Part shown: in pieces, positions 48,868 through 63,599 of the stretch
Layout of the letters: the number at the start of each line of letters is the position of its first letter
Position numbering within the stretch: position 1 is the stretch's first letter
Assembly: GCF_037201915.1 (NCBI RefSeq)
Contig: NZ_CP147505.1
Coordinates: 1 to 64,000, forward strand
Length of the DNA: 64,000 nt
Source of the DNA: Haloplanus sp. CK5-1
Lineage (GTDB): Archaea > Halobacteriota > Halobacteria > Halobacteriales > Haloferacaceae
Reading direction: 5' to 3'
Notes under the pieces: model-generated
The model's input: the letters and a program-made list of their open reading frames with translations, nothing else
The model's database searches: none
Told to the model about the DNA's origin: nothing
Made by a program: the position numbers and the translations under genes

Positions 48868-50379
48868 CGCTAGTTGTCCACTCTCTTGATGGCGGCGGCA
48901 ACAAGAGTCCGGTCTAACACGGTAAGGACGCTGATACGAGACGAAGTACACATCTGACGCCACGGAGAGTTGAGGAAGAGTCACAAATCTGGATTGTTTT
49001 GGCTGTAGTTGTCGTTCAGACTGATCTCCGAAGACAGCTGTCGCTGTTCGCCAGCCTCGCTTCGCCGAAGCGAGGCGGCTCAACCGAGTCCGTGTTCGTA
49101 TCCTGCTGGCAGTCCTTCTCCGTTAGTCCGGTACTTCTCTTTCCAGCCGAGTTCGTCGTCTAACACCCGTTCGATCCCGTGCAAAAACGCGTCACCAAAC
49201 GCGAATGTTTTCGGAAGTGCTCGCCCGCCCCGCCGTGGTCGGGCGAGCACGGCCCACTGTAACACGAGCCACAACTGCTCTAACAGAAACCCCACGCCCA
49301 CGTAGAACAGCCGGATTGTCGTCGATGGCGTTGTTGTCAGGGCACGCGCTTCTCGGAACTTCTCGTAGCTCTTCTCTATCCGTGAACGCTTGTTGTAGGT
49401 CGTAGCGACTTGCGCGGGCGTGCGGTCTTCCAGACCGTACGCCGCGTATCCTGTCGCTTTCACACCAGACTTTCCGCGGTCACCGTTCTGATAGGTAACG
49501 TTCACCGCCAGTGGATACGTCTGTTCGTGCTCTTTCCCTTCGCAAATCGTCTCTTCGGTCATGTGTGACGCGGCCTTGGAGAGTTTCTTCCGGAGCGAGT
49601 CTTTCCGGGTTATGACCGGAAAGACTGGCGGTGCTGTCTCCCGAAGAATACCGATTAACTCCCCGACAAAGGCGTCCCTGTCCATGAGGATCTGGTCGGT
49701 CTCGAATGGGTATGTTTCGACGCGGGCGAGCACGCGCTCGACCGCGTCGGCCTTGCTGTCCTCGCCGTCAACTGGTTCAACCGCCAGTGTGAGTGGCTTT
49801 CCCTGCGCGATGACGAACGCAGTACAGTACCGGTGACACTTCGTGGTTCCATCTCGTGCTTCCATTCTCCTGAACTCGTCCTCGTCGTCTGGATGACCGT
49901 GGAACGGATTGTCCATGAAGTCCAGACAGATGGTTCTCGACCCGCCGCGGTCGAGAACCGTCATCGCCACCAGTGCGAGGATATCGTTGACAGCATCAAG
50001 CATCGGCTCTTTCTCCAAGGTGTGCAACCAGTCCATCACTGGCTCGCGGTTTGGCGTGTCCTCAGTGTTCGTCGTGACACCGTTGACGGAGGTTGTGTCA
50101 ACAGCAGCTCGTAAGACGACTTCCATGATTTCCTCGGAATCGAGGCCGGAGCCCTCGATTCCTTCCATCGGTATCAGCTCAAGCAACTCCATGCTAAGAG
50201 ACTTCAACTGGCTGCTCGAAATGTACTCGTCCGGATCTGTGAGGATGCGTTTGAGTCTTGGGAACTCCATCACACACAGGAATCCGGGCAGCGGCTGAAT
50301 CAGGCGACTGATTCAGTCGCGTCATTCTAATCACTACGTGTCAGAAACTGGTCTCTTGAGCCAGAGTGGACAACTAGCG
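48868..50379 (-). mobile_element. ISH3-family insertion sequence, copy A
   Basis: 1512 bp bounded by 17-bp inverted repeats CGCTAGTTGTCCACTCT (48868-48884) and its complement (50363-50379). The target duplication ATTGT is present at 48863-48867 and 50380-50384. It holds one transposase gene. The insertion lies between the Rep-like gene and the 140-aa gene and breaks no recognisable gene. Confidence 0.92.
49080..50273 (-). CDS. ISH3-family transposase, copy A
   Basis: A 397-aa DDE transposase. It shows the ISH3 layout: VLRAAVDTTSVNGVTTNTEDTPNREPVMDWLHTL, the first aspartate in ICLDFMDNPFHGH, the second in ILMDRDAFVGELIG, the glutamate in RSRIEKSYEKFREAR, and the family's RPRRGGRAL near the C-terminus. 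The frame is intact. It differs at scattered residues from copy B, so the two copies are not recent duplicates of each other. Confidence 0.93.
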   Translation of the reverse strand: MMEFPRLKRILTDPDEYISSSQLKSLSMELLELIPMEGIEGSGLDSEEIMEVVLRAAVDTTSVNGVTTNTEDTPNREPVMDWLHTLEKEPMLDAVNDILALVAMTVLDRGGSRTICLDFMDNPFHGHPDDEDEFRRMEARDGTTKCHRYCTAFVIAQGKPLTLAVEPVDGEDSKADAVERVLARVETYPFETDQILMDRDAFVGELIGILRETAPPVFPVITRKDSLRKKLSKAASHMTEETICEGKEHEQTYPLAVNVTYQNGDRGKSGVKATGYAAYGLEDRTPAQVATTYNKRSRIEKSYEKFREARALTTTPSTTIRLFYVGVGFLLEQLWLVLQWAVLARPRRGGRALPKTFAFGDAFLHGIERVLDDELGWKEKYRTNGEGLPAGYEHGLG

Positions 50380-51405: not shown

Positions 51406-52916
51406 CGCTAGTTGTCCACTCTGGCTCAAGAGACCAGTTGCTGACACGTAGTGATCAGAATGACGCGACTGAATCAGTCGCCTGATTCAGCCGCCGTCCG
51501 GATGGATGCGTGATGAGGCTACCAAAACTCAAACGCATCCTCACAGATCCGGACGAGTACATTTCGAACAGCCAGTTGAAGTCTCTTAGCATGGAGTTGC
51601 TTGAGCTGATACCGATGGAAGGAATCGAGGGCTCTGGCCTCGATTCCGAGGAGATCATGGAAGTCGTCTTACGAGCTGCTGTTGACACAACCTCAGTCAA
51701 CGGCGTCACAACGAATACTGAGGACACGCCAAACCGCGAGCCAGTGATGGACTGGTTGCACACCCTGGAGAAAGAGCCGATGCTCGATGCTGTCAACGAT
51801 ATCCTCGCACTGGTGGCAATGACGGTTCTCGACCGCGGCGGGTCGAGAACCATCTGTCTGGACTTCATGGACAATCCGTTCCACGGTCATCCAGACGACG
51901 AGGACGAGTTCAGGAGAATGGAAGCACGGGACGGAACCACGAAGTGTCACCGGTACTGTACTGCGTTCGTCATCGCGCAGGGAAAGCCACTAACACTGGC
52001 AGTTGAACCAGTTGATGGCGAGGACAGCAAGGCCGACGCGGTCGAGCGCGTGCTCGCCCGCGTCGAGACATATCCATTCGAGACCGACCAGATCCTCATG
52101 GACAGAGACGCCTTCGTCGGGGAGTTAATCGGTGTTCTTCGGGAGACAGCACCGCCAGTCTTTCCGGTCATAACCCGGAAAGACTCGCTCCGGGAGAAAC
52201 TTGCTGTCACTGCTTCGCATATGACAGAAGAGACGGTCTGTGAAGACAAAGAGTACGAACAGACGTATCCGCTGGCAGTGAACGTCACCTACCAGAACGG
52301 TGATCGTGGAAAATCAGGGCTCAAACAAACGGGCTACGCGGCGTACGGTCTGGAAGACCGCACGCCGCAGCAAGTGGCGCAGGTCTACAACCATCGGTCA
52401 CGGATCGAGAAGAGCTATGAGAAGTTCCGCGAAGCGCGTGCTTTGACAACGACGCCATCGACGATAATTCGGCTCTTCTACGTGGGTGTCGGGTTCCTGT
52501 TGGAGCAGTTGTGGCTCGTGTTGCAATGGGCAGTGCTCGCCCGGCCACGGCGTGGCGGGCGAGCACTCCCGACAGATTTCACGTTCAGTGATGGGTTTCT
52601 CCACGGGATCGAGCAGGTGTTAGACGATGAGCTCGGCTGGAAGCAAAAGCATCGGACAAACAGTGAAGGGTTACCACCAGGATACGAGCACGGACTCGGC
52701 TGAGCCGCCTCGCTTCGGCTGAAGCGAGGCTGGCGAACAGCGACAGCTATCTTTTGACGGTCGTCGAAATAACTGCCACAGCGGACAACAGCCAAGTATT
52801 TGATATTTTTCTAACTCGGTGCAGCGTCAGGAGTGGAATTCGTCTCGTTTCGGCCTTCTTATCGTGTTAAACCGGACTCTTGCCACCGGCGCTATCGATA
52901 GAGTGGACAACTAGCG
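51406..52916 (+). mobile_element. ISH3-family insertion sequence, copy B
   Basis: 1511 bp with the same 17-bp inverted repeats as copy A (51406-51422 and 52900-52916). The target duplication is AAAGT at 51401-51405 and 52917-52921. It is inverted relative to copy A and about 1 kb away. It lies inside the gene for the basic-tailed protein. Confidence 0.93.
51510..52703 (+). CDS. ISH3-family transposase, copy B
   Basis: An intact 397-aa DDE transposase with the same catalytic layout as copy A (LDFMDNPFHGH, ILMDRDAFVGE, RSRIEKSYEKFREAR). Differences from copy A are scattered, for example around SLREKLAVTASHMTEETVCEDKEYEQTY and in LPTDFTFSDGFLHGIEQ near the C-terminus. Confidence 0.93.
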   Translation: MMRLPKLKRILTDPDEYISNSQLKSLSMELLELIPMEGIEGSGLDSEEIMEVVLRAAVDTTSVNGVTTNTEDTPNREPVMDWLHTLEKEPMLDAVNDILALVAMTVLDRGGSRTICLDFMDNPFHGHPDDEDEFRRMEARDGTTKCHRYCTAFVIAQGKPLTLAVEPVDGEDSKADAVERVLARVETYPFETDQILMDRDAFVGELIGVLRETAPPVFPVITRKDSLREKLAVTASHMTEETVCEDKEYEQTYPLAVNVTYQNGDRGKSGLKQTGYAAYGLEDRTPQQVAQVYNHRSRIEKSYEKFREARALTTTPSTIIRLFYVGVGFLLEQLWLVLQWAVLARPRRGGRALPTDFTFSDGFLHGIEQVLDDELGWKQKHRTNSEGLPPGYEHGLG

Positions 52917-53917: not shown

Positions 53918-54097
53918 ATGGATGACGAAACTACGATAACAGTCAAAAAGTCTGTACGTGACGAGCTTCGTCGGTACAAAGCTCAAGATGGCCTCACGTA
54001 CGATGAGGCAATTGCCCGTCTCCTTGAGGAAGCGGATTGGATTGACGACAAAACAGAACTGTTAGAGAAAATCGGGAAAACGGAGAACGACCAATGA
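53918..54097 (+). CDS. Small RHH-like protein, first gene of the operon
   Basis: A 59-aa protein, MDDETTITVKKSVRDELRRY..., then GLTYDEAIARLLEEADWIDDKTELLEKIG. The strand plus two helices match ribbon-helix-helix/VapB-type small proteins. The stop overlaps the start of the QueF-like gene (ATGA), so the two are coupled. A likely role is autoregulation of the operon or serving as an antitoxin-like safety factor; this is inference. Confidence 0.65.
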   Translation: MDDETTITVKKSVRDELRRYKAQDGLTYDEAIARLLEEADWIDDKTELLEKIGKTENDQ

Positions 54098-54519
54098 CAT
54101 CTGCTAACCCAAGCCTGCTGGAAGTAATCGAAAACGAGTACCCTGGACGAAACACGCGGCTCGAAATCACGTCACCGGAGTTCACGTGTCTCTGTCCAGA
54201 AAAGCCAGAACAACCGGACTTCGGGACGATCATTATTGAGTACGTCCCCGACGATCACATTATCGAACTGAAGTCGCTAAAACTCTATCTCGGATCATAT
54301 CGGGACGTAGAGATCTACCATGAGCCGGCGACCAATCAGATCCTCGACCACCTTGTCGAAGCCTGTGACCCTCGCTGGATGCGTATCACCGGGCAATTCA
54401 ACGTCCGTGGCGGTATCACCACCGACACGGCCGTAGAGTACGGAGAACTAACCGACGACATTCCCGAAACTCGCGCCAGTAGGGCAGATAACCTCTCCCG
54501 AACCCCATCTGAGCGATAA
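54094..54519 (+). CDS. queF: QueF-type 7-cyano-7-deazaguanine (preQ0) reductase
   Basis: A 141-aa T-fold enzyme. Family residues are clear: the catalytic cysteine C34 in FTCLCP, the acid/base D42 in QPDFGTI, the QueF signature ELKSLKLYL (residues 58-66), H76-E77 in YHE, and FNVRGGI near 102-108. QueF reduces preQ0 to preQ1 with NADPH. The ELKSLKLY block is the NADPH-type signature, which the archaeal amidinotransferase QueF-L is reported to lack, so reductase is preferred over archaeosine synthase. Haloarchaea normally stop at preQ0 and archaeosine, so a QueF here points to a special pathway with the TGT-like gene 2 bp downstream. Confidence 0.85.
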   Translation: MTSANPSLLEVIENEYPGRNTRLEITSPEFTCLCPEKPEQPDFGTIIIEYVPDDHIIELKSLKLYLGSYRDVEIYHEPATNQILDHLVEACDPRWMRITGQFNVRGGITTDTAVEYGELTDDIPETRASRADNLSRTPSER

Positions 54520-54521
54520 CA

Positions 54522-55556
54522 ATGGAGTTCTACGCTGCACTCAGCCTCTGTTCGAGTTCAATCCGGAAGACCTCTGCCAAGTTAGTTGACGGATATGGGT
54601 CACTCGAACCGCTGGAGAACGTGATGTTCACCCCGATTTCTCAGGGTGAAACGTCACATACGGCGATACGAAATCTCCAAGATCGATTCGATATTAATGT
54701 CATGTTCGATTCTGGCGGATACGAAGTCCAAGTAGGTAACAAAACGTTCGATGATCTCCAAGCCTACCTACACGACTTCTATGGCGACAACCACTGGGGT
54801 CATCGCTATGTCCTTCCAGACAACGTTCCTCTATCACAAGATTCACCGGAACTCGTTGAAAAGAAGGTGAAACAGACGGCTGATATTACCACGCTGTTCT
54901 ACCGTCAACTTCCAGATCATCTGCAGGAACGTGCACTTGCTGTCATTCAAGGTCACACACAGGATCAACTCCGCCAGTGTCTCAGTACCTACAAAGAACT
55001 TGACGGACTCCAACACATCGGATTCGGCAGTTTCGGTACCAGTGGTGTCAGCAACGGCGTAAATATGCTCACGACGGAAGCGTTCCACAACCTCGAATGG
55101 GCCGTCGAAAAGGCACATGACGCCGGAATGAGCGTTCACGCGTTCGGTGTTGGCGGCCCGACAAGCATCCCCCTGCTCTATGCAGCAGGGGTCGATAGCT
55201 TCGACACAACAAGTTGGATGCGGTCAAGTGGATACGGGAACGTGTTCTTCCCGTTCAAGAGCCGGTACAACGCGTCACACCGGACAAACCGGAGCGGGAA
55301 CCTACTCACGAAAGACGAGTTACCCCACCTCAAAGCAGAAACCGGTCATTCCTGTCCATTCTGTGAGTCAATGAAGCAACTCCGGAACAATCGGTGGGAT
55401 CGCATAATGCACAATCTCATCGTCATCCACGAGATGACGAATCGGGTTGAGCAGATGTCGTACGAGGAGATCCTCGCTGCTATGGACGAACAATCGACGT
55501 ATCGTCGTCGGTTAGAACAGGTCACGTCAGCGTCACGGCCGAAACAGGTGATCTGA
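54522..55556 (+). CDS. dpdA: TGT-like base-exchange enzyme (DpdA-like)
   Basis: A 344-aa protein of the tRNA-guanine transglycosylase superfamily. MFDSGGYEVQ (D63) matches the DSGGFQ acid/base motif. AVIQGH matches the IVQGG strand and IGFGSFG the GGLAVG loop. GVGGPTSIPLLYAAGVDSFDTTSWMR matches GVGTPEDL...GVDMFDCVxPTR, with D228 as nucleophile. The zinc site is H276-x-C278-x2-C281 with a later HNL histidine (H297); the first usual Cys is His. There is no PUA domain, unlike archaeal tRNA TGT. Its size and neighbours suggest exchange of guanine for preQ1 in DNA, as DpdA proteins do; an RNA or protein target is possible. Confidence 0.8.
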   Translation: MEFYAALSLCSSSIRKTSAKLVDGYGSLEPLENVMFTPISQGETSHTAIRNLQDRFDINVMFDSGGYEVQVGNKTFDDLQAYLHDFYGDNHWGHRYVLPDNVPLSQDSPELVEKKVKQTADITTLFYRQLPDHLQERALAVIQGHTQDQLRQCLSTYKELDGLQHIGFGSFGTSGVSNGVNMLTTEAFHNLEWAVEKAHDAGMSVHAFGVGGPTSIPLLYAAGVDSFDTTSWMRSSGYGNVFFPFKSRYNASHRTNRSGNLLTKDELPHLKAETGHSCPFCESMKQLRNNRWDRIMHNLIVIHEMTNRVEQMSYEEILAAMDEQSTYRRRLEQVTSASRPKQVI

Positions 55557-55559
55557 ACC

Positions 55560-56393
55560 ATGGCGAAACTTCATATCGAAGGTGCGAAGCACCGACCGGA
55601 AGCGATCAAGCATTATCTGGATTTCATTGACCAGCGTGACTACGACTCTGTTGAGGGTGTGATGGATGATGTCTATCGTGAAACTGGGTTAGATGTCGTT
55701 AATACGAAGAATATGCAGACGACGCTGGCTAAGTTAGGGTTAGTTGATGATTCTGATCGGCAGCAACTGACCGATTACGGCAGAGAGCTTGTTGAAGTCT
55801 TACTCTACAACGACCAACTATTCTATGAACTATTACACTTCACCTATGCAACTGCCTACTACCGTGACCCATCTTCAGATCGGGCGATTTCGTGGGCTTA
55901 TTACCAGATATGCGACGAATTTCGTCGCCGAGCACCGGTCGAATTCACCCAAGACACCAAACAGGAAATCGTTGAATCCGTAGATTTAACGGCAGAACGC
56001 AGTTCAGAGGAAGGATTGAGTGATTCCGGGCCACTCAGCACGACGAGCCTAAACAATTACGCGCGGTTCATCAAAGAACTGGATCCAGACGTTTACGACG
56101 ACAGTTCAGATGAGGTGACACTCCGGTCGTTCGCACCGACCGAACTAGTTCTAGCAACAGTCGATCATCTTTACCGCACTGATATTGATTCAAGGGCTCG
56201 TAACTACGGTGATCCAGTTGAATTGTCTGGAGACACGACTGAGATAATCTGTAATATTCTGCTGTTACAGGAAGAGCAACTGCCGGACGTAATTGAACAC
56301 GTCGCGTCGATGGACGCACGACTATCGATTAAAAGCGATTACCAGCTTAGGGTCAGGCTCAGCGACCCGGTGGAAATCAATGACCTCGCCTGA
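55560..56393 (+). CDS. Unknown operon protein with N-terminal winged-helix-like region
   Basis: A 277-aa soluble protein. Residues 30-80 read like a winged helix (GLDVVNTKNMQTTLAKLGLVDDSDRQQLTDYGREL). The middle (FYELLHFTYATAYYRDPSSDRAISWAYYQICDEF) recalls proteins such as DUF4007 that accompany BREX and Dnd systems, but I would not assign that family. It starts 3 bp after the TGT-like gene and overlaps the next gene by 14 bp. It could be a DNA-binding specificity or adaptor subunit. Confidence 0.6.
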   Translation: MAKLHIEGAKHRPEAIKHYLDFIDQRDYDSVEGVMDDVYRETGLDVVNTKNMQTTLAKLGLVDDSDRQQLTDYGRELVEVLLYNDQLFYELLHFTYATAYYRDPSSDRAISWAYYQICDEFRRRAPVEFTQDTKQEIVESVDLTAERSSEEGLSDSGPLSTTSLNNYARFIKELDPDVYDDSSDEVTLRSFAPTELVLATVDHLYRTDIDSRARNYGDPVELSGDTTEIICNILLLQEEQLPDVIEHVASMDARLSIKSDYQLRVRLSDPVEINDLA

Positions 56394-56856
56394 AGCACCA
56401 CTACTACGGCAGACGAACGTCCTGAAAGAGGCTGCTGACGAGTCGCTGCTGACTGATGCCCAGAAAGACGCCCGTGATGCCATACGTCAGCACCGTGAGG
56501 ATGGTGCTCGATTCATCAATCTTCACGGTCCACGGCACGCTGGGAAGACGTTCCTCTGTTGGGTGTTACACCTCTCAGAAGGCTGGGATTATTACCAGAC
56601 CGGTTCAAAGAGTGTAGATACGCCCACTGTCCTCTATGACCACGGGGAACCAGAACGACGCGAAACACGGAAACTCCGGAACCAGGCCAGCATCAACGGA
56701 CTTGCAACAATCGTGTACGTCACTGATCGGCCTGCCGACGAGTTGTACCCACGCGTCGAATTATGGCCAGAAGATGAACACTACCAACAAATAGCCAACA
56801 CATGGGACGACCTCGGACTTGACACCGAAAACGCACCTACACCAATCCAACAATGA
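56380..56856 (+). CDS. Small P-loop protein
   Basis: A 158-aa protein with a Walker A motif GPRHAGKT in FINLHGPRHAGKTFLCWVLH, about residues 49-56, and possible Walker B-like strands later (TPTVLYDHG, ATIVYVTD). It is too short for a complete AAA+ module with a lid, so it may be a nucleotide-binding cofactor of the large ATPase. It overlaps that gene by 4 bp (ATGA). The start at MTSPEAPLLR is used; the frame is open 29 codons upstream inside the previous gene. Confidence 0.65.
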   Translation: MTSPEAPLLRQTNVLKEAADESLLTDAQKDARDAIRQHREDGARFINLHGPRHAGKTFLCWVLHLSEGWDYYQTGSKSVDTPTVLYDHGEPERRETRKLRNQASINGLATIVYVTDRPADELYPRVELWPEDEHYQQIANTWDDLGLDTENAPTPIQQ

Positions 56857-59800
56857 GCACGCAAAAACCAACTGAGAACGTCGAAGAGTTATCTGACCTC
56901 GTTCGGAAGAGTGAAGGTATCATTTCGACCTTTGAGGCCCGGAGCCTCAAGGACGAACCAGAAACAGTCGAAGATGACTATCGACGGTACGCGCAGACAC
57001 ACGTCTCACTAGGCGACACTAGTGAGTTTGAAAACGAGATTTACGAAACCGTCATAGACGAAGATTCAGCGACGAAGGGGTACCTGTACGGCCCGTACGG
57101 GTACGGCAAGACAAGCACTTCCGTTAGTATTTGGCATACACTCAGTGACAACGATATTATTGCAGTTCCGCCGTTTACGATGGATTCGTTTGCTGCAGTG
57201 ATGCGTGCTACCTACGGGTGGCTTCGTTACGAGTTCCAGAACAAAGCCCCGGGATACGTCGACGATCTTGATGACATTCACGAGCGGTATCTGCAGCAAG
57301 AGCTGCAGTCGGTTGCGAAGCAGAAAGAAGGCCAGCACGACCTGGACTTCGACAAGCTCGTTGCGATGTTCGAGGAGATGGAACAGGAGAATGATCTCGA
57401 TCTCAGCATTAACGCTGATACGCTCATTGACTTTTTCGATGAGTGTACCGAAGTCGCGGTAGATGCTGGATTCGAGGCGCTCGTTATCATCGGTGACGAG
57501 CTCCAAGAGTACTTCAACAGCGCTGATAACGAAAAGGACGCTGAATCCCGGTTCCGACGGCTTGTCTTCGGCCTTCAGGCTGGGGCACAGATTCGTGACG
57601 AGTTTGGTCTCTTCATCTCGATGCCTGAGAAGACGAAGAGTATGCTGGACTCTCGGGCAGAAGATATTCTGAACCGCCTTCAGCGTGACAACCTAACGCT
57701 GAATCTCCAGAACGTGTACGGGCGGGAATTTCCTGCGGAACTATGGGATCGCTACGCGGATCAGTTCAACTTTGCAGACCAGAAGCACGAGATCATCTCT
57801 GAGTCCGCTCTGAAAGCCACAGGTGAAGTCTGTTCGCGGAATGACATCAGTAACGGGCCGCGAACCGTGATGGACATCTTCCGCCTCGCATTGTCCCAAT
57901 ACGAAGATCAGCAGGAAACCTTCACGGCCCTTGATTTGGCTGACTGCTTCTACCAGGGCGAGGTTCGATACCAGGGCTCCAGTACAAAAACCCAGACCGC
58001 TATCGGTGATGCCCTTGATCACTCAGCGGTTGATACTGAAGAGAAACAGAAGTTCCTGAAGTTGTGTGCGGTGTTCCCGGTCGAAGGGATTCCTGATGGT
58101 GTTGTTGAGGAATACGGACTCGGGCAAGCGGAGACAGAACTCTCAAAGAAATTCCATGGTGAAGTCATCAAGGTTGTCTCCGATGGGTACACGCTGGTAG
58201 ACCTGACTCGAACGGAAACAACTGACCCGATTCGGGAGTTGATTCGTGACTTCTGGCGTGAGTACGGTGTCGGTGAAGCTGCGGCTGCAGATGCCGTTGA
58301 GGCGCTCGCTAACAATCTCTTGGCTGGTGAAATTCTCGAACCCCAACGCGGAACACTAGATGGCTGGACGAACGGCGGTAAGGACTTCAATAAACTGGAC
58401 CACACCGCATTCAAAGACCAGTTTGAGGGGACGTTCGACACACGATTCCCCAAGCGCCGTATCAGCGTTGGAGTGTGTGATGACAGGAAGGAAGATGAGA
58501 TTATCAGTTCACACGAGTCGCTTGGTGAATTCTTCGGTGCACCTGACCTCGGTCTGAATTTCGTTCTCGCATGGCAGAAAGGCGGAGATGAGGTTCCCGG
58601 GTCACACATCCGTGAAGAGTCAGACCGCGAGTACACGTTCGTGCTTGATGCTCGGCAGTCATTTGATGAACTTCCGAAGGGACTAGACTTTCTCCGTGAC
58701 GCCATGGACCCGAAGGCAGTCACACCATTCCTGATGCTGGCGCTCGTACACTACCTGGACGACCCGCCAGCGGAATTAGACGCACAGCAGCAACAGCGTG
58801 TCGAGTCCTTCCAGCAGAGTCTTCTTGACCAGTCACTGAAGGCGCTCTTCGATGAGCAACTTATTACGAACGCGCCGTACGAGCTGCGGCGTGCTGGAAA
58901 GCGGGCTGTTGAAGGCCTCTTTACGAAGGCGATGGAGTCGCTGTACCCCAATTACCATACGGTGATTGCGAGCCCTCAGTACCGGGGTAAGATTGACAAT
59001 TACATTGATTTCTTGGAGTCGCTGGAAACGACCTCGAAGCGGAAAGGGACTAACACAGTTGTTGAAGAGACGACCAGTGAGAATAATTCAGGGAAGCACG
59101 CGATGGCCGCCCGATTCGGGCTCCGTCAGACTTCCTCGTTTGACAACAGCGTAAAGAAGCACTACGGTGACCTGTTGACGATCGTCGATGACGACGCAGA
59201 TCATTACGAGGTCAGAGCAGAACTCCACCCTCTGGAAGAAGAGATTCTTGCACAACTTGAAGCGGCAGACGATGACACGCTGGCGGTAACAGATGCCGAG
59301 GATCTCGCGTTGGAGAAGGGCTATCGTGATGAGGAGCTTGAGGTCATCGCTGAACTCATTCAGCGCCGCGGTCTCGCCGTCTACGACGAGTTAAATAATG
59401 CGCTCGTCCTGCAAGAGACGGATGTCACCATCGAGGACGTTGAACATGAAATCGAGGATTGCCGAGAGAAGATCGAGACTATTGAACAACTCGAACCGAA
59501 TCGCGTCCCGGATGGCGTTCCTGAGCGGATTGATGAGTTAGCTGAAGAGCTGGGACGGACGAATGCTGATGACGGTGAGAAACTGGAGAGACTGAAGGTC
59601 GATGCAGAGCACATTACTGTCAGGTTAGAAGAAGTCGGTGAGCTGCTTTACAACCACTACGAGTCCGAGTGTAGTGATGTACAGAGGGATGCTAAACGAA
59701 CACGTCGGGATTTCATCCCCAGTCACTTAGAGGATGACGTGGTTAGCGGTGTCGGGTTCGTCGGTGGATTGAACGATGCTCGAACCGAGTTGCTCGCTGA

Positions 59801-60848
59801 CTTCCGAGACCTCAATGGCGAGTTGTCCAGTGTGATTGAAGCGGTCGAAGATGCCCAGAAACGGTACGATTCACGGTCGTTGGAAGCTGCGTTGGAACTT
59901 CACTCCGAAGCGGAATCTGCACGCGACACGTTACGTGATATAGAAGAGCAGATTGACGAGTTAGAGGAATATGCTGATGAGTTGGAGCAGTGGCGAACAT
60001 TTGCAGATCGCGTTGGGAATGTCAAAGAAGACATTCAAGACTACTCTCGAACGTTCGACGAGTCCATTCGAGAAGAGACTGATATTGAGGAGTTCATCGG
60101 AGAAATTCACGAGCGGCTGGCGGAGAGCCCGATTGATGCGCTGACGAACAGAGAAGCGTTTGAAGAACGGCTTGATCAGATTGAAGAAGCCTACCAACAG
60201 CGCCGTGAAGAACGCCGTGAGGTGTTCAACGCTAAGCAGGAGACATTAAACGAGATTCTTGACGAGGCAACCGGTGGGAAGGCCGGTCGACTTCGGGTAA
60301 CATTCGACGTGAAACAGCCAGATGAGTCTCGTCGCCGGCTGTTCGAAGACTTTAAAGACGAATACCAAAGTCAAGTGCTGGACCAGGCTGAGAAGAAGCT
60401 CAACAATGCCGAGAATGAGGTCGAATACGCGCAGATCGTCGGGATTGAAGCAGAGACTGAAGCCGATCCAGACCACGTTGCAGAACAGATTGAACAGGCT
60501 GAAGCGACACTCCGGGGCCTTCGAGGAACACTGTCACGGTTTGAGCTCGCCGATATTGGTGATGAGACAGACCTCGGTAGCGAAGGGGCCACACTACTCA
60601 CAACGGCTGATGAGCTGCAACACGAGGCCAGGGGATTCCGGGCGCAGACCGATCCAGACGATGAGGAGCTTCAGGATCTGCTGGAGCGAATCAACGAGAA
60701 CCGTGGCCCCGACTTCAAGGAACTGCTGATGGAGTATCACGAGGATGGTGAGGACATCAGCGTCGATGAGTTGCTAACCCGAGTCGAGCAGCTCTTCAAA
60801 CTCAACCAAATTGACATCAAGATCACCGAACGACGCGGGCGGCGATAA
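56853..60848 (+). CDS. Large BrxC/PglY-like ATPase with coiled coil
   Basis: A 1331-aa protein. The N-terminal P-loop domain has Walker A GPYGYGKT (residues 80-87) and Walker B ALVIIGDELQEYF (209-221). ATPase and helical regions follow to about residue 840, and residues about 850-1300 are a long, very charged coiled coil (EDVEHEIEDCREKIETIEQL; ADELEQWRTFADRV). Size, N-terminal ATPase and position before pglZ match BrxC/PglY of BREX, though no sequence comparison could be run. It would be the motor or scaffold of the complex and act on DNA in the cytoplasm. Confidence 0.75.
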   Translation: MSTQKPTENVEELSDLVRKSEGIISTFEARSLKDEPETVEDDYRRYAQTHVSLGDTSEFENEIYETVIDEDSATKGYLYGPYGYGKTSTSVSIWHTLSDNDIIAVPPFTMDSFAAVMRATYGWLRYEFQNKAPGYVDDLDDIHERYLQQELQSVAKQKEGQHDLDFDKLVAMFEEMEQENDLDLSINADTLIDFFDECTEVAVDAGFEALVIIGDELQEYFNSADNEKDAESRFRRLVFGLQAGAQIRDEFGLFISMPEKTKSMLDSRAEDILNRLQRDNLTLNLQNVYGREFPAELWDRYADQFNFADQKHEIISESALKATGEVCSRNDISNGPRTVMDIFRLALSQYEDQQETFTALDLADCFYQGEVRYQGSSTKTQTAIGDALDHSAVDTEEKQKFLKLCAVFPVEGIPDGVVEEYGLGQAETELSKKFHGEVIKVVSDGYTLVDLTRTETTDPIRELIRDFWREYGVGEAAAADAVEALANNLLAGEILEPQRGTLDGWTNGGKDFNKLDHTAFKDQFEGTFDTRFPKRRISVGVCDDRKEDEIISSHESLGEFFGAPDLGLNFVLAWQKGGDEVPGSHIREESDREYTFVLDARQSFDELPKGLDFLRDAMDPKAVTPFLMLALVHYLDDPPAELDAQQQQRVESFQQSLLDQSLKALFDEQLITNAPYELRRAGKRAVEGLFTKAMESLYPNYHTVIASPQYRGKIDNYIDFLESLETTSKRKGTNTVVEETTSENNSGKHAMAARFGLRQTSSFDNSVKKHYGDLLTIVDDDADHYEVRAELHPLEEEILAQLEAADDDTLAVTDAEDLALEKGYRDEELEVIAELIQRRGLAVYDELNNALVLQETDVTIEDVEHEIEDCREKIETIEQLEPNRVPDGVPERIDELAEELGRTNADDGEKLERLKVDAEHITVRLEEVGELLYNHYESECSDVQRDAKRTRRDFIPSHLEDDVVSGVGFVGGLNDARTELLADFRDLNGELSSVIEAVEDAQKRYDSRSLEAALELHSEAESARDTLRDIEEQIDELEEYADELEQWRTFADRVGNVKEDIQDYSRTFDESIREETDIEEFIGEIHERLAESPIDALTNREAFEERLDQIEEAYQQRREERREVFNAKQETLNEILDEATGGKAGRLRVTFDVKQPDESRRRLFEDFKDEYQSQVLDQAEKKLNNAENEVEYAQIVGIEAETEADPDHVAEQIEQAEATLRGLRGTLSRFELADIGDETDLGSEGATLLTTADELQHEARGFRAQTDPDDEELQDLLERINENRGPDFKELLMEYHEDGEDISVDELLTRVEQLFKLNQIDIKITERRGRR

Positions 60849-60850
60849 TC

Positions 60851-61960
60851 ATGGCGTCGTTTGAAACACTCGCTGATCGTGCCAGCGAAGCACCAGTCAT
60901 CTCACCCCTTCCAGCCCTCGCTACGTTCTATTTGGATGGTCTCTCCATCTATCGATCTGTAGACACGTTTCACCGGGATCTCTACGACCCCGATTATCAG
61001 TTCGAACAGGACGTAGTGATTGATGATGATTCACGCTATCACGAATACCCGTACATCAACTGTACCACAGATCCGATAACCCCTGCACTAAATGACGTTG
61101 TAGACTGGGCAAACGAAGAACATCACGACCGGATTCGACAGGATCTTCTACAACAGTCAAAGCTGAAAAACCACATTTTAGACGCCATTACGGGCGAAGA
61201 TTTTGTTGCCCTCATCATTATTGACGGGCTCTCATACGATGCCCTTCGGACGGTTAGTAATGAAATTCTCCAGCCAGTGATTGTAGACGGGATTACAACG
61301 ACCGAGCCCGGATTCAGACGGATTATCTATGGTGGTGACCCAGCATCAATATACGCTTCTCTGACCGGAGAAGGATTCTACACCGGATATGGGTTCACAT
61401 ACTGGGAGCGCGGCCAGGAAGATCTCTCAACCGATCTCCATTCAGCGATGGGGCAGAATATCCACCGTATCCGTGATTTCGATGAGGTCATCTCAACACT
61501 CGAAGCCGATGCACCATTCACAGAGAAGACGTACGTACAAGTAACCAGAATGGGACTAGACCAAGATTCACACAACCGGAAAGAGAATCCGAATCGTAAT
61601 GTTGTACGTGACGAAATCTTATCCGACGTAAAATCGCTCGCAGAAACCGCCTCAACTATGTCTGATAACTTCCGCATCTTCATGACTGCTGACCATGGCA
61701 TCCTCTGGCGAGACCAACTCCCAGAAGACCCGCCGATCGTTCATGACGAATGGACGAACCACGCACGATTCCTAACCGGACAGCATAATCTAGAACATGG
61801 GATGGTTGTCAAGGATTCCACGGATCCAACTACCGGATTGGCGTACCCATACCTAACCCGGGAACTGAAAAATACTGAGTGGGGTGTCCACGGTGGCTTC
61901 TCATATCAGGAATCCATCGTCCCGCTCATCGAAGTTACATCACCAGGTGATCTCGAATGA
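60851..61960 (+). CDS. pglZ: PglZ-domain protein (alkaline phosphatase superfamily)
   Basis: A 369-aa protein with the PglZ metal-site pattern: ALIIIDGLSYDALR (D125, S128), MTADHGILW (D281, H282) and the C-terminal GVHGGFSYQESIVPLIEV (H347). PglZ is the shared component of BREX and related phage-defence systems and belongs to the phosphatase/nuclease-like alkaline phosphatase superfamily. It is much shorter than BREX PglZ (about 800 aa), consisting of little more than the core domain. It starts 2 bp after the large ATPase gene and overlaps the HerA-like gene by 4 bp. Confidence 0.85.
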   Translation: MASFETLADRASEAPVISPLPALATFYLDGLSIYRSVDTFHRDLYDPDYQFEQDVVIDDDSRYHEYPYINCTTDPITPALNDVVDWANEEHHDRIRQDLLQQSKLKNHILDAITGEDFVALIIIDGLSYDALRTVSNEILQPVIVDGITTTEPGFRRIIYGGDPASIYASLTGEGFYTGYGFTYWERGQEDLSTDLHSAMGQNIHRIRDFDEVISTLEADAPFTEKTYVQVTRMGLDQDSHNRKENPNRNVVRDEILSDVKSLAETASTMSDNFRIFMTADHGILWRDQLPEDPPIVHDEWTNHARFLTGQHNLEHGMVVKDSTDPTTGLAYPYLTRELKNTEWGVHGGFSYQESIVPLIEVTSPGDLE

Positions 61961-63126
61961 GACTGTTCATCGGAGAAGAACTCGAAAACGGCGAAGACAC
62001 GTACATAGATGCAACAAGCGCCAGGTCAATCCTTGCCTGCGGAAAACGCGGAACCGGGAAAAGCTATGCACTCGGTGACATTGTAGAGGAGATCCACACC
62101 GAAGGAATCGACGTTGTTCCTCTCGTGATTGACCCGATGGGGATTTACTGGACAATGGCGGAAGAAAATGAGGAACAACGGGACCTGCTTTGGGACTGGG
62201 GGCTAAACGAAGAAGGTTTTCCTGTGAATCTGCTCGTTCCCGGTGAACCTGAAGAGCGGTTCGACGAAGAAGTTCTGAGAGAGTTTGAACGCCGCGGAAT
62301 CGATATTAACCCGTTGCTGCTGAACCCGTCAGATATGTCTCCTGACGGGTGGTGTGACCTCTTTGACCTGAATATCAACAAGCCCATGGGGATTGCTCTG
62401 TACCGGGCAGTCCGAAAGCTGAACGACGAATATGAGGATGGAGATTTCTATCTCGATGACATCATAAAGAAGATCGAGATGGATGGTGACGCGAACGAGC
62501 GAACCCAAGAAGCCCTTCTAAACCGGTTAGAAATGGCTCATGACTGGGGGATTTTCGCTGATTCCTACCAGGACATCTTCCGGACTGTTGACGAAGATCG
62601 AATCAATATCCTGGATGTCAGTGTCATCGAACCTGGAAAATACGGACTCCGAAACCTCGTTGTCGAGGTACTCGGAAAGGAACTGTTCCGTCGTCGCCAG
62701 GCTGCTCGTCGGCGAGAAGAACTCCAGCTCGGTGTTGATATTCCGAAGGTGTGGCTGTTCATCGACGAAGCACACAACTTCGTGCCGAGCGGGAAATCAT
62801 CACTGGCAAAGGACACAATTATCCGGTGGGTGAAAGAAGGCCGCCAACCGGGCTTGTCAATCGTCGTTGCAACGCAGCAACCATCGGCAATTGACAGCAA
62901 TGTCCTGTCGCAATGCGACGTGATTCTGTGTCATAAGATCACGACGAGAGAGGACATTAAATCGCTCAACAAACTCAGTCAGGACTACATGAGTGGTGCG
63001 CTGAAGACCTACGTTCAGAACATCGATAATGTCGGAGAAGCGGTCTACGTGGACGACGAAGAAGAGACAGTGAAGATGGTACAGATTCGTCCGCGGAAAA
63101 GCAAGCATGGTGGTGGTGAAGCATGA
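61957..63126 (+). CDS. HerA-type hexameric ATPase
   Basis: A 389-aa HerA/FtsK-superfamily ATPase. Walker A is GKRGTGKS (residues 29-36), Walker B VWLFIDEAHNFVP (about 264-276), and the HerA segment VATQQPSAIDSNVLSQCDVILCHKI follows. Length and layout fit the DUF87/HerA group found in defence loci, where it pumps or unwinds DNA. No NurA nuclease gene is next to it; the PglZ or another subunit may take that place. Overlaps both neighbours by 4 bp. Confidence 0.85.
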   Translation: MRLFIGEELENGEDTYIDATSARSILACGKRGTGKSYALGDIVEEIHTEGIDVVPLVIDPMGIYWTMAEENEEQRDLLWDWGLNEEGFPVNLLVPGEPEERFDEEVLREFERRGIDINPLLLNPSDMSPDGWCDLFDLNINKPMGIALYRAVRKLNDEYEDGDFYLDDIIKKIEMDGDANERTQEALLNRLEMAHDWGIFADSYQDIFRTVDEDRINILDVSVIEPGKYGLRNLVVEVLGKELFRRRQAARRREELQLGVDIPKVWLFIDEAHNFVPSGKSSLAKDTIIRWVKEGRQPGLSIVVATQQPSAIDSNVLSQCDVILCHKITTREDIKSLNKLSQDYMSGALKTYVQNIDNVGEAVYVDDEEETVKMVQIRPRKSKHGGGEA

Positions 63127-63599
63127 CACAGCCAGCGAAATCAATTGCTGTTGAACAGGTCGTAGATGAGGATGATGTAGGTCGCGTCAACGACTTCTTT
63201 AATCTGCGACCGATCAAGCGGGATCTACACCAGTTCACGTATCGGGATACTCTCGATCGGGCATTCTGTCGAGATGATCGACGACTCTTCTACATTGAGA
63301 AGGACGCTACTATCATGGCTGCTCTGATGGTCTGGTGTGAATCACGGGTGCTGGATGACGATGAAGCGCAAATCCGACTAGTGGCGGTTAAACCAGAACA
63401 CCGTGGGCAGGGATTTGGCCGGGCTCTCTGTGAACGGGCTGAACAGTTCGCGTTTGAGTTCGGGGAGCAGAAGATGAGTGCTGATGTTATGGCGGAGTCG
63501 CAGGCTGTCGAGTTCTGGCAGTCACTTGGATATACGATTGAAGAGGAATGGACGACCGATAATGGCCGTTCAATGTATCGGGTTTCTAAGCCTATCTGA
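63123..63599 (+). CDS. GNAT-family N-acetyltransferase
   Basis: A 158-aa acetyltransferase with the acetyl-CoA motif VKPEHRGQGFGRALCERAEQFA (R/Q-x-x-G-x-G/A) at about residues 89-111, the AQIRLVAV strand before it and the ESQAVEFWQSLGYTIEEEW end. It overlaps the HerA-like gene by 4 bp and ends the operon. The primary amine of preQ1 would be a conceivable substrate, giving a hypermodified base, but protein acetylation is equally possible. Confidence 0.8.
   Translation: MTQPAKSIAVEQVVDEDDVGRVNDFFNLRPIKRDLHQFTYRDTLDRAFCRDDRRLFYIEKDATIMAALMVWCESRVLDDDEAQIRLVAVKPEHRGQGFGRALCERAEQFAFEFGEQKMSADVMAESQAVEFWQSLGYTIEEEWTTDNGRSMYRVSKPI

Follow-up and report, generated by a model that had tools for sequence, protein, structure and literature searches.

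The 64,000-nucleotide stretch of Haloplanus sp. CK5-1 DNA analyzed here (contig NZ_CP147505.1; hereafter the window) carries an island that is a QueF-bearing variant of the recently described BRC ("BREX-related capture") system, and the pathway encoded by its genes predicts a specific new base. We consider it fairly probable, judging from the genes and their relatives, that the island is a haloarchaeal BRC defense system with a hypermodified 7-deazaguanine self mark, in which QueF, a guanine transglycosylase (TGT) and a GNAT would together produce N-acyl-dPreQ1; the role as a self mark is read from the gene content. A sequence-only reading of the window had proposed a free-standing QueF-TGT pair that places preQ1 in DNA. 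Both ORFs lie exactly where that reading had located them, 2 bp apart, but the pair is the start of an eight-gene, BREX-related defense operon (54094-63599), and the free-standing pair was dropped as a complete description on reading the operon and its relatives. The successive intergenic gaps from QueF to GNAT are 2, 3, -14, -4, 2, -4 and -4 bp, and the G+C content of the operon is 0.517, compared with 0.612 for the window. The genes, in order, are as follows:

53918-54097, + strand: 59-aa ribbon-helix-helix/antitoxin-like ORF (function assigned by eye), its last 4 bp shared with the start of QueF
54094-54519, + strand: QueF, unimodular preQ0 nitrile reductase of the QueF-II type (PF14489, 6.3e-33; TIGR03139 equivalog; match to B. 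subtilis QueF)
54522-55556, + strand: TGT-superfamily guanine transglycosylase without a PUA domain, predicted DNA preQ1 insertase (PF01702; weak DpdA models; fold search; D63/D228)
55560-56393, + strand: SspB/DUF4007 (BrxA-like) winged-helix protein (AlphaFold pLDDT 90.5; top PDB match SspB 6juf)
56380-56856, + strand: small P-loop NTPase, putative counterpart of the BRC STAND NTPase (active BrxB), from its conserved Walker A GKT and operon position
56853-60848, + strand: BrxC-like AAA+ ATPase with a long coiled coil, putative counterpart of the BRC DUF6079 protein (PF10923 in relatives)
60851-61960, + strand: PglZ, short form, candidate nuclease effector (PADLOC PglZ, 6.7e-9; DG, DHG and HGG motifs conserved)
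61957-63126, + strand: HerA/FtsK-type DNA translocase (PF01935, 5.5e-11; PADLOC mad8/HerA, 3e-23)
63123-63599, + strand: GNAT acyltransferase, predicted to acylate the preQ1 aminomethyl group (PF00583, 3.8e-14; CoA motif R94-GQGFG)

The 59-aa ORF is a possible regulator of the operon, and its membership is uncertain. Just upstream of the island, two transposase-like proteins (49080-50273, - strand; 51510-52703, + strand) lie in opposite orientation and are identical at 368 of 397 residues.

The 141-aa protein at the head of the operon was claimed to be an enzyme with the full QueF site, and all of the residues concerned (C34, D42, ELKSLKLY and H76-E77) are intact. It passed the NCBIfam QueF-II "preQ(1) synthase" equivalog TIGR03139 (145.8 bits; cut-off 86.9), and it matched B. 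subtilis QueF at 1.5e-27, as against 3.7e-5 for the QueF-L (archaeosine synthase) of P. calidifontis. Its identity as a QueF reductase is well supported from these comparisons, and the candidate identity as QueF-L, with dG+ as the product, was rejected on the same equivalog and PDB-sequence scores. The enzyme was also said to be abnormal for haloarchaea, which agrees with its occurrence over the cut-off in only 11 of 391 genomes. Where QueF lies at the 3' end (Haloplanus, L020), and in a second copy in L015, the His of the His-Glu pair is lost, and the activity of these copies may differ.

The 344-aa TGT scored 42.5 bits against the Pfam TGT model (cut-off 26.3) and has no PUA domain. D63 and D228 are invariant in an alignment of 13 sequences, as is the H276-x-C278-xx-C281...H297 set, in keeping with its earlier description as a PUA-less TGT-like protein that retains both catalytic aspartates. 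More specific models were not passed: the DpdA model NF041059 gave 23.4 bits (curated cut-off 200), the PADLOC DpdA match was weak (3.7e-5), and the arcTGT equivalog TIGR00432, although the top-scoring NCBIfam model, reached 33.2 of the 350 bits required. AlphaFold predicted a barrel with good confidence (pLDDT 89); in the PDB it was closest to TGTs, and DpdA 7ui4 (8.5e-9) matched about equally well. The structural comparison with known enzymes that had been suggested thus returned the TGT fold, with DpdA among the matches, but the fold does not separate DNA from RNA as the substrate, since the solved TGTs and DpdA match about equally. The operon context, with DNA-translocase, PglZ and BrxC-like proteins, bears out the assignment of the PUA-less TGT to a DNA-targeting system.

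The remaining proteins were compared with the features of BRC, which was described from gene content in archaea and bacteria (NAR 2026 gkag035, PMC12839542). A Foldseek search with the model of the 55560-56393 protein returned SspB 6juf with a probability of 1.00 (E 9e-3), whereas the Pfam scan gave no match; the modeled SspB-like fold suggests that this protein is equivalent to the DUF4007 tripartite wHTH protein of BRC. The 158-aa NTPase matched no family in the scans. The window ATPase is tied to Pfam BrxC_BrxD (PF10923) through its relatives only, with matches in 4 of the 13 family members (best 2.3e-6) and none to DUF6079. PglZ scored 18.5 bits against a Pfam gathering threshold of 25 and was counted as the BRC PglZ by virtue of its PADLOC match. 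In addition, the operon contains the HerA/FtsK translocase and the TGT/GNAT subset that are features of BRC.

We found the window-type TGT in 8 of the 391 haloarchaeal genomes, and all eight loci carry the full eight-gene set, in the same order in seven of them; the exception has QueF immediately following GNAT on the opposite strand. GNAT follows HerA in every one of the eight. The QueF-TGT pairing is not a matter of chance, because both are conserved together in all of the haloarchaeal genomes with the TGT (8/8). An independent PglZ profile search of the 391 genomes returned exactly the same eight and no BRC lacking TGT; thus, no haloarchaeal BRC was found without QueF, TGT or GNAT. These eight genomes also account for 8 of the 11 with QueF over the cut-off (p=1.3e-14, for genomes that are not phylogenetically independent), so that BRC islands explain most of the rare haloarchaeal QueF genes. 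In the other three, QueF adjoins a DUF6610 protein in proviral surroundings (two genomes) or is a lone diverged copy (one genome). All nine archaeal BRC loci that contain TGT also have QueF. On a Haloplanus plasmid, queC-queE-queD directly adjoin BRC and QueF comes after GNAT.

Several additional features were seen around these loci. Several haloarchaeal BRC loci adjoin a gene of a conserved ~120-aa family with no Pfam match (L089:13247-13615, L019:3384-3761, L015:14712-15077 and L018:3473-3826), the copies being 66-77% identical to the Haloplanus copy. Halogeometricum limi CGMCC 1.8711 and Halorientalis regularis TNN28 are among the strains with the locus. In H. limi (L021:194-5619), two further genes come directly after the BRC GNAT, encoding another STAND-like NTPase and an AAA protein of 1328 aa. 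Nanohaloarchaeal and Aenigmarchaeotal contigs (L034-L056) carry HerA relatives of the window family, and other BRC genes were not detected in them.

The source of preQ0 had been given as the host. De novo synthesis was looked for and not found, as QueC and QueE are absent from the assembled chromosome (one contig, 99.8% complete). Since this chromosome encodes a YhhQ/Vut_1-family transporter, preQ0 is probably imported, or else made by a pathway on an unassembled plasmid; imported preQ0 would require reduction by QueF to reach preQ1. The chromosome also has arcTGT and ArcS-like matches elsewhere, named from their position and score. In a genus-mate, the sole QueC and QueE adjoin BRC. The genomes of a genus-mate (G173) and of G246 resemble that of the window in having arcTGT, an ArcS-like protein and a YhhQ-family transporter with no QueC or QueE on the chromosome, implying preQ0 salvage.

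The partners that recur beside GNAT are enzymes that make and insert 7-deazaguanine. GNAT is fused to TGT on a plasmid of Oscillatoria PCC 7112 and in a viral contig (L098), and adjoins TGT in two viral contigs (L099/L100; L112) in which no BRC genes were seen; one phage contig with TGT-GNAT showed no QueF. A search of viral contigs with the bacterial-type GNAT yielded further contexts (L117, L118 and L120-L124). In four of them, GNAT is fused to a DUF6610-type domain (L117:5004-6038, L120:295-1542, L121:4818-6065 and L122:4821-6092), which suggests that DUF6610 may be a DNA transglycosylase handling acylated preQ1. GNAT adjoins QueF in L123, and L124 carries queC, queE, queD, folE, GNAT, QueF and DpdA; phage runs of the form DpdA-QueF-GNAT-QueC-FolE-QueD-QueE were also found, with the gene names assigned partly by eye from translations. 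Among 80 viral QueF loci, the bacterial/phage-type GNAT is present in 11 and directly beside QueF in 10, usually in DpdA-QueF-GNAT runs, where random placement among ~10 genes per locus would put ~2 of the 11 beside QueF (rough binomial 9e-7; 4e-4 de-replicated). Several of these loci are near-identical and they represent about six distinct sequences, so the counts are not independent. A primary amine is present in preQ1 and absent from preQ0, and acylation of preQ1 is therefore the economical reading of the GNAT. The haloarchaeal GNATs form a separate subfamily, ~19% identical to the phage/bacterial type, and the profile match between the two (probability 98%) could reflect generic GNAT similarity. 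No relatives of the haloarchaeal type were found in the viral contigs, and the transfer of the substrate assignment to haloarchaea rests on the shared operon position.

The bacterial/phage-type GNAT has other neighbors as well. In two contigs (L118:3215-5423 and L119:2090-4298), it adjoins ADDT (PF18724), an amino acid:DNA transferase involved in base hypermodification, and the GNAT there may acylate another aminomethyl base. In viral contig L112 (3195-5130), the gene just before GNAT and TGT encodes a SAVED-domain protein (8.1e-15), and the TGT frame is apparently broken near its end.

Outside haloarchaea, the genes from TGT to GNAT occur in the same order, with no local QueF, in the five Chloroflexi loci that are long enough to show it. 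QueF over the cut-off is present elsewhere in 2 of the 10 Chloroflexi BRC MAGs, and QueA, which requires preQ1-tRNA, is present in 6 of the 10, pointing to the use of preQ1 or Q in part of them. This implies that preQ1 would be available to at least some Chloroflexi BRC hosts; the expectation that every bacterial BRC host encodes a QueF of its own held only in part. A search for BRC without TGT in the Chloroflexota sample returned only the known locus. The annotated phage collection gave no match to the BRC-type TGT, and plasmids gave only two. A large gene lies upstream of TGT in five Chloroflexi loci (L023, L026, L027, L029 and L030). In L029 it matches sigma-70 regions 2 and 4, and in the others it was recognized by eye; this gene preceding the BRC operon is a possible dedicated regulator.

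We propose the following pathway. After preQ0 enters the cell, probably via the YhhQ-type transporter, QueF would reduce it to preQ1, thereby creating a primary aminomethyl group, and the PUA-less TGT would exchange guanine for preQ1 at chosen DNA sites. As its recurrent linkage and fusions suggest, GNAT would acylate the aminomethyl nitrogen, either before or after insertion, to give N-acyl-dPreQ1. By analogy with BRC and BREX, unmarked DNA would be recognized by an assembly of the SspB/BrxA-like, STAND and BrxC-like proteins; HerA would then draw it in, and PglZ would cut or nick it. The product predicted from the letters alone was dPreQ1; the QueF reductase stands, but dPreQ1 itself is probably an intermediate and N-acyl-dPreQ1 the final base, because GNAT closes the operon and phage GNATs lie directly beside QueF and DpdA. 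More tentatively, a GNAT family that acylates preQ1 in DNA might be common to phages, bacterial BRC and haloarchaeal BRC, with N-acyl-7-aminomethyl-7-deazaguanine serving both as phage armor and as the cell's self mark in a methylation-free, BREX-related defense.

The identity of the mark allows several other readings. QueF and TGT are adjacent and would suffice for dPreQ1 as the final mark, with GNAT regulating the system by acetylating a protein, and dPreQ1 has been proven to be the final base in HVTV-1 and in phage Dp-1 (PMC6884629). We regard this alternative as unlikely, given the many unrelated settings in which GNAT is fused to or immediately beside TGT, DUF6610 or QueF. The BRC paper suggested dPreQ0, perhaps as the sole base, with no mention of QueF and with the GNAT lacking a defined substrate (PMC12839542); preQ0 is also what Dpd systems and DpdA use. 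This would make QueF incidental, which is very improbable for a gene found in every archaeal BRC locus with TGT and nearly absent elsewhere in haloarchaea. Even less credible is a dG+ mark made by a QueF-L-type amidinotransferase: in phages, the sequence alone separates QueF from QueF-L poorly (PMC6884629), but the window protein passed the reductase equivalog, has ELKSLKLY and H-E intact, and matches B. subtilis QueF better by 22 orders of magnitude, and in HVTV-1 and Dp-1, where this ambiguity also arose, it was resolved to dPreQ1 (PMC6884629).

The target and the purpose of the modification can be weighed in the same way. That arcTGT is the best of the NCBIfam models for the TGT, albeit far below its cut-off, would fit modification of tRNA instead of DNA. 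The missing PUA, the arcTGT and ArcS-like matches already present elsewhere in the genome, the DNA-translocase, PglZ and BrxC-like partners, and the pairing of viral relatives with DNA-modification genes make this highly improbable. We attach equally little weight to the idea that the mark tags invading DNA for destruction instead of protecting self DNA: the gene content fits either alternative, but QueF, DpdA and GNAT also occur together in phages, presumably to serve the phage genomes, which fits protection or mimicry. Taken together, we favor N-acyl-dPreQ1 as the self mark of the island.

Known systems share individual elements with the island. In Dpd restriction-modification (DpdA-K), a TGT-superfamily enzyme inserts a 7-deazaguanine into DNA as a self mark, whereas the window TGT falls far below the DpdA cut-off and is accompanied by QueF and GNAT; no match to DpdB, DpdC or another Dpd component was found among the operon proteins scanned. 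Formylated and methylated preQ1 in phage DNA were reportedly described by Cui et al. in 2023, with transferases other than GNAT. Like the proposed mark, these bases are dPreQ1 in DNA with a substituent on the aminomethyl group, and they differ in belonging to phage DNA; acylated preQ1 is thus chemically plausible, and the chemistry, though not its use in cellular defense, is less novel. In the literature searched, neither GNAT-made acyl-dPreQ1 nor acyl-dPreQ1 as a cellular defense mark was found. Mom of phage Mu is also a GNAT-superfamily enzyme that modifies a DNA base (PMC7824862), but its target is adenine N6, not a transglycosylated deazaguanine. The halovirus HVTV-1 has QueF in a haloarchaeal context, and dPreQ1 was shown in its DNA (PMC6884629). 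It differs in being viral, with its own preQ0 pathway, in lacking an annotated GNAT within the listed half of its genome, and in its candidate inserter, the DUF6610 protein HVTV1_69, which is not a window-type TGT. HVTV1_69 (L096:33803-34963; DUF6610, 2.7e-56) is a relative of the proteins that adjoin QueF in two haloarchaeal proviruses and is a candidate for the missing inserter of this virus, which was reported without DpdA.

The closest relative is BRC, with PglZ, a BrxC/DUF6079-type ATPase, a STAND NTPase, a DUF4007/SspB-type protein, HerA, GNAT and TGT in one operon; the window differs in having QueF (some relatives also have queC/D/E) and in an ATPase that matches no DUF6079 model. With QueF as the source of the amine that was lacking and the likely GNAT substrate indicated by the phage operons, the list of BRC components would become a pathway that can be tested and whose product is named. 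If the proposal is true, an acylated deazaguanine would mark cellular DNA, a BREX relative would use a self/non-self signal other than methylation or phosphorothioation, and one chemistry would be common to host defense and phages.
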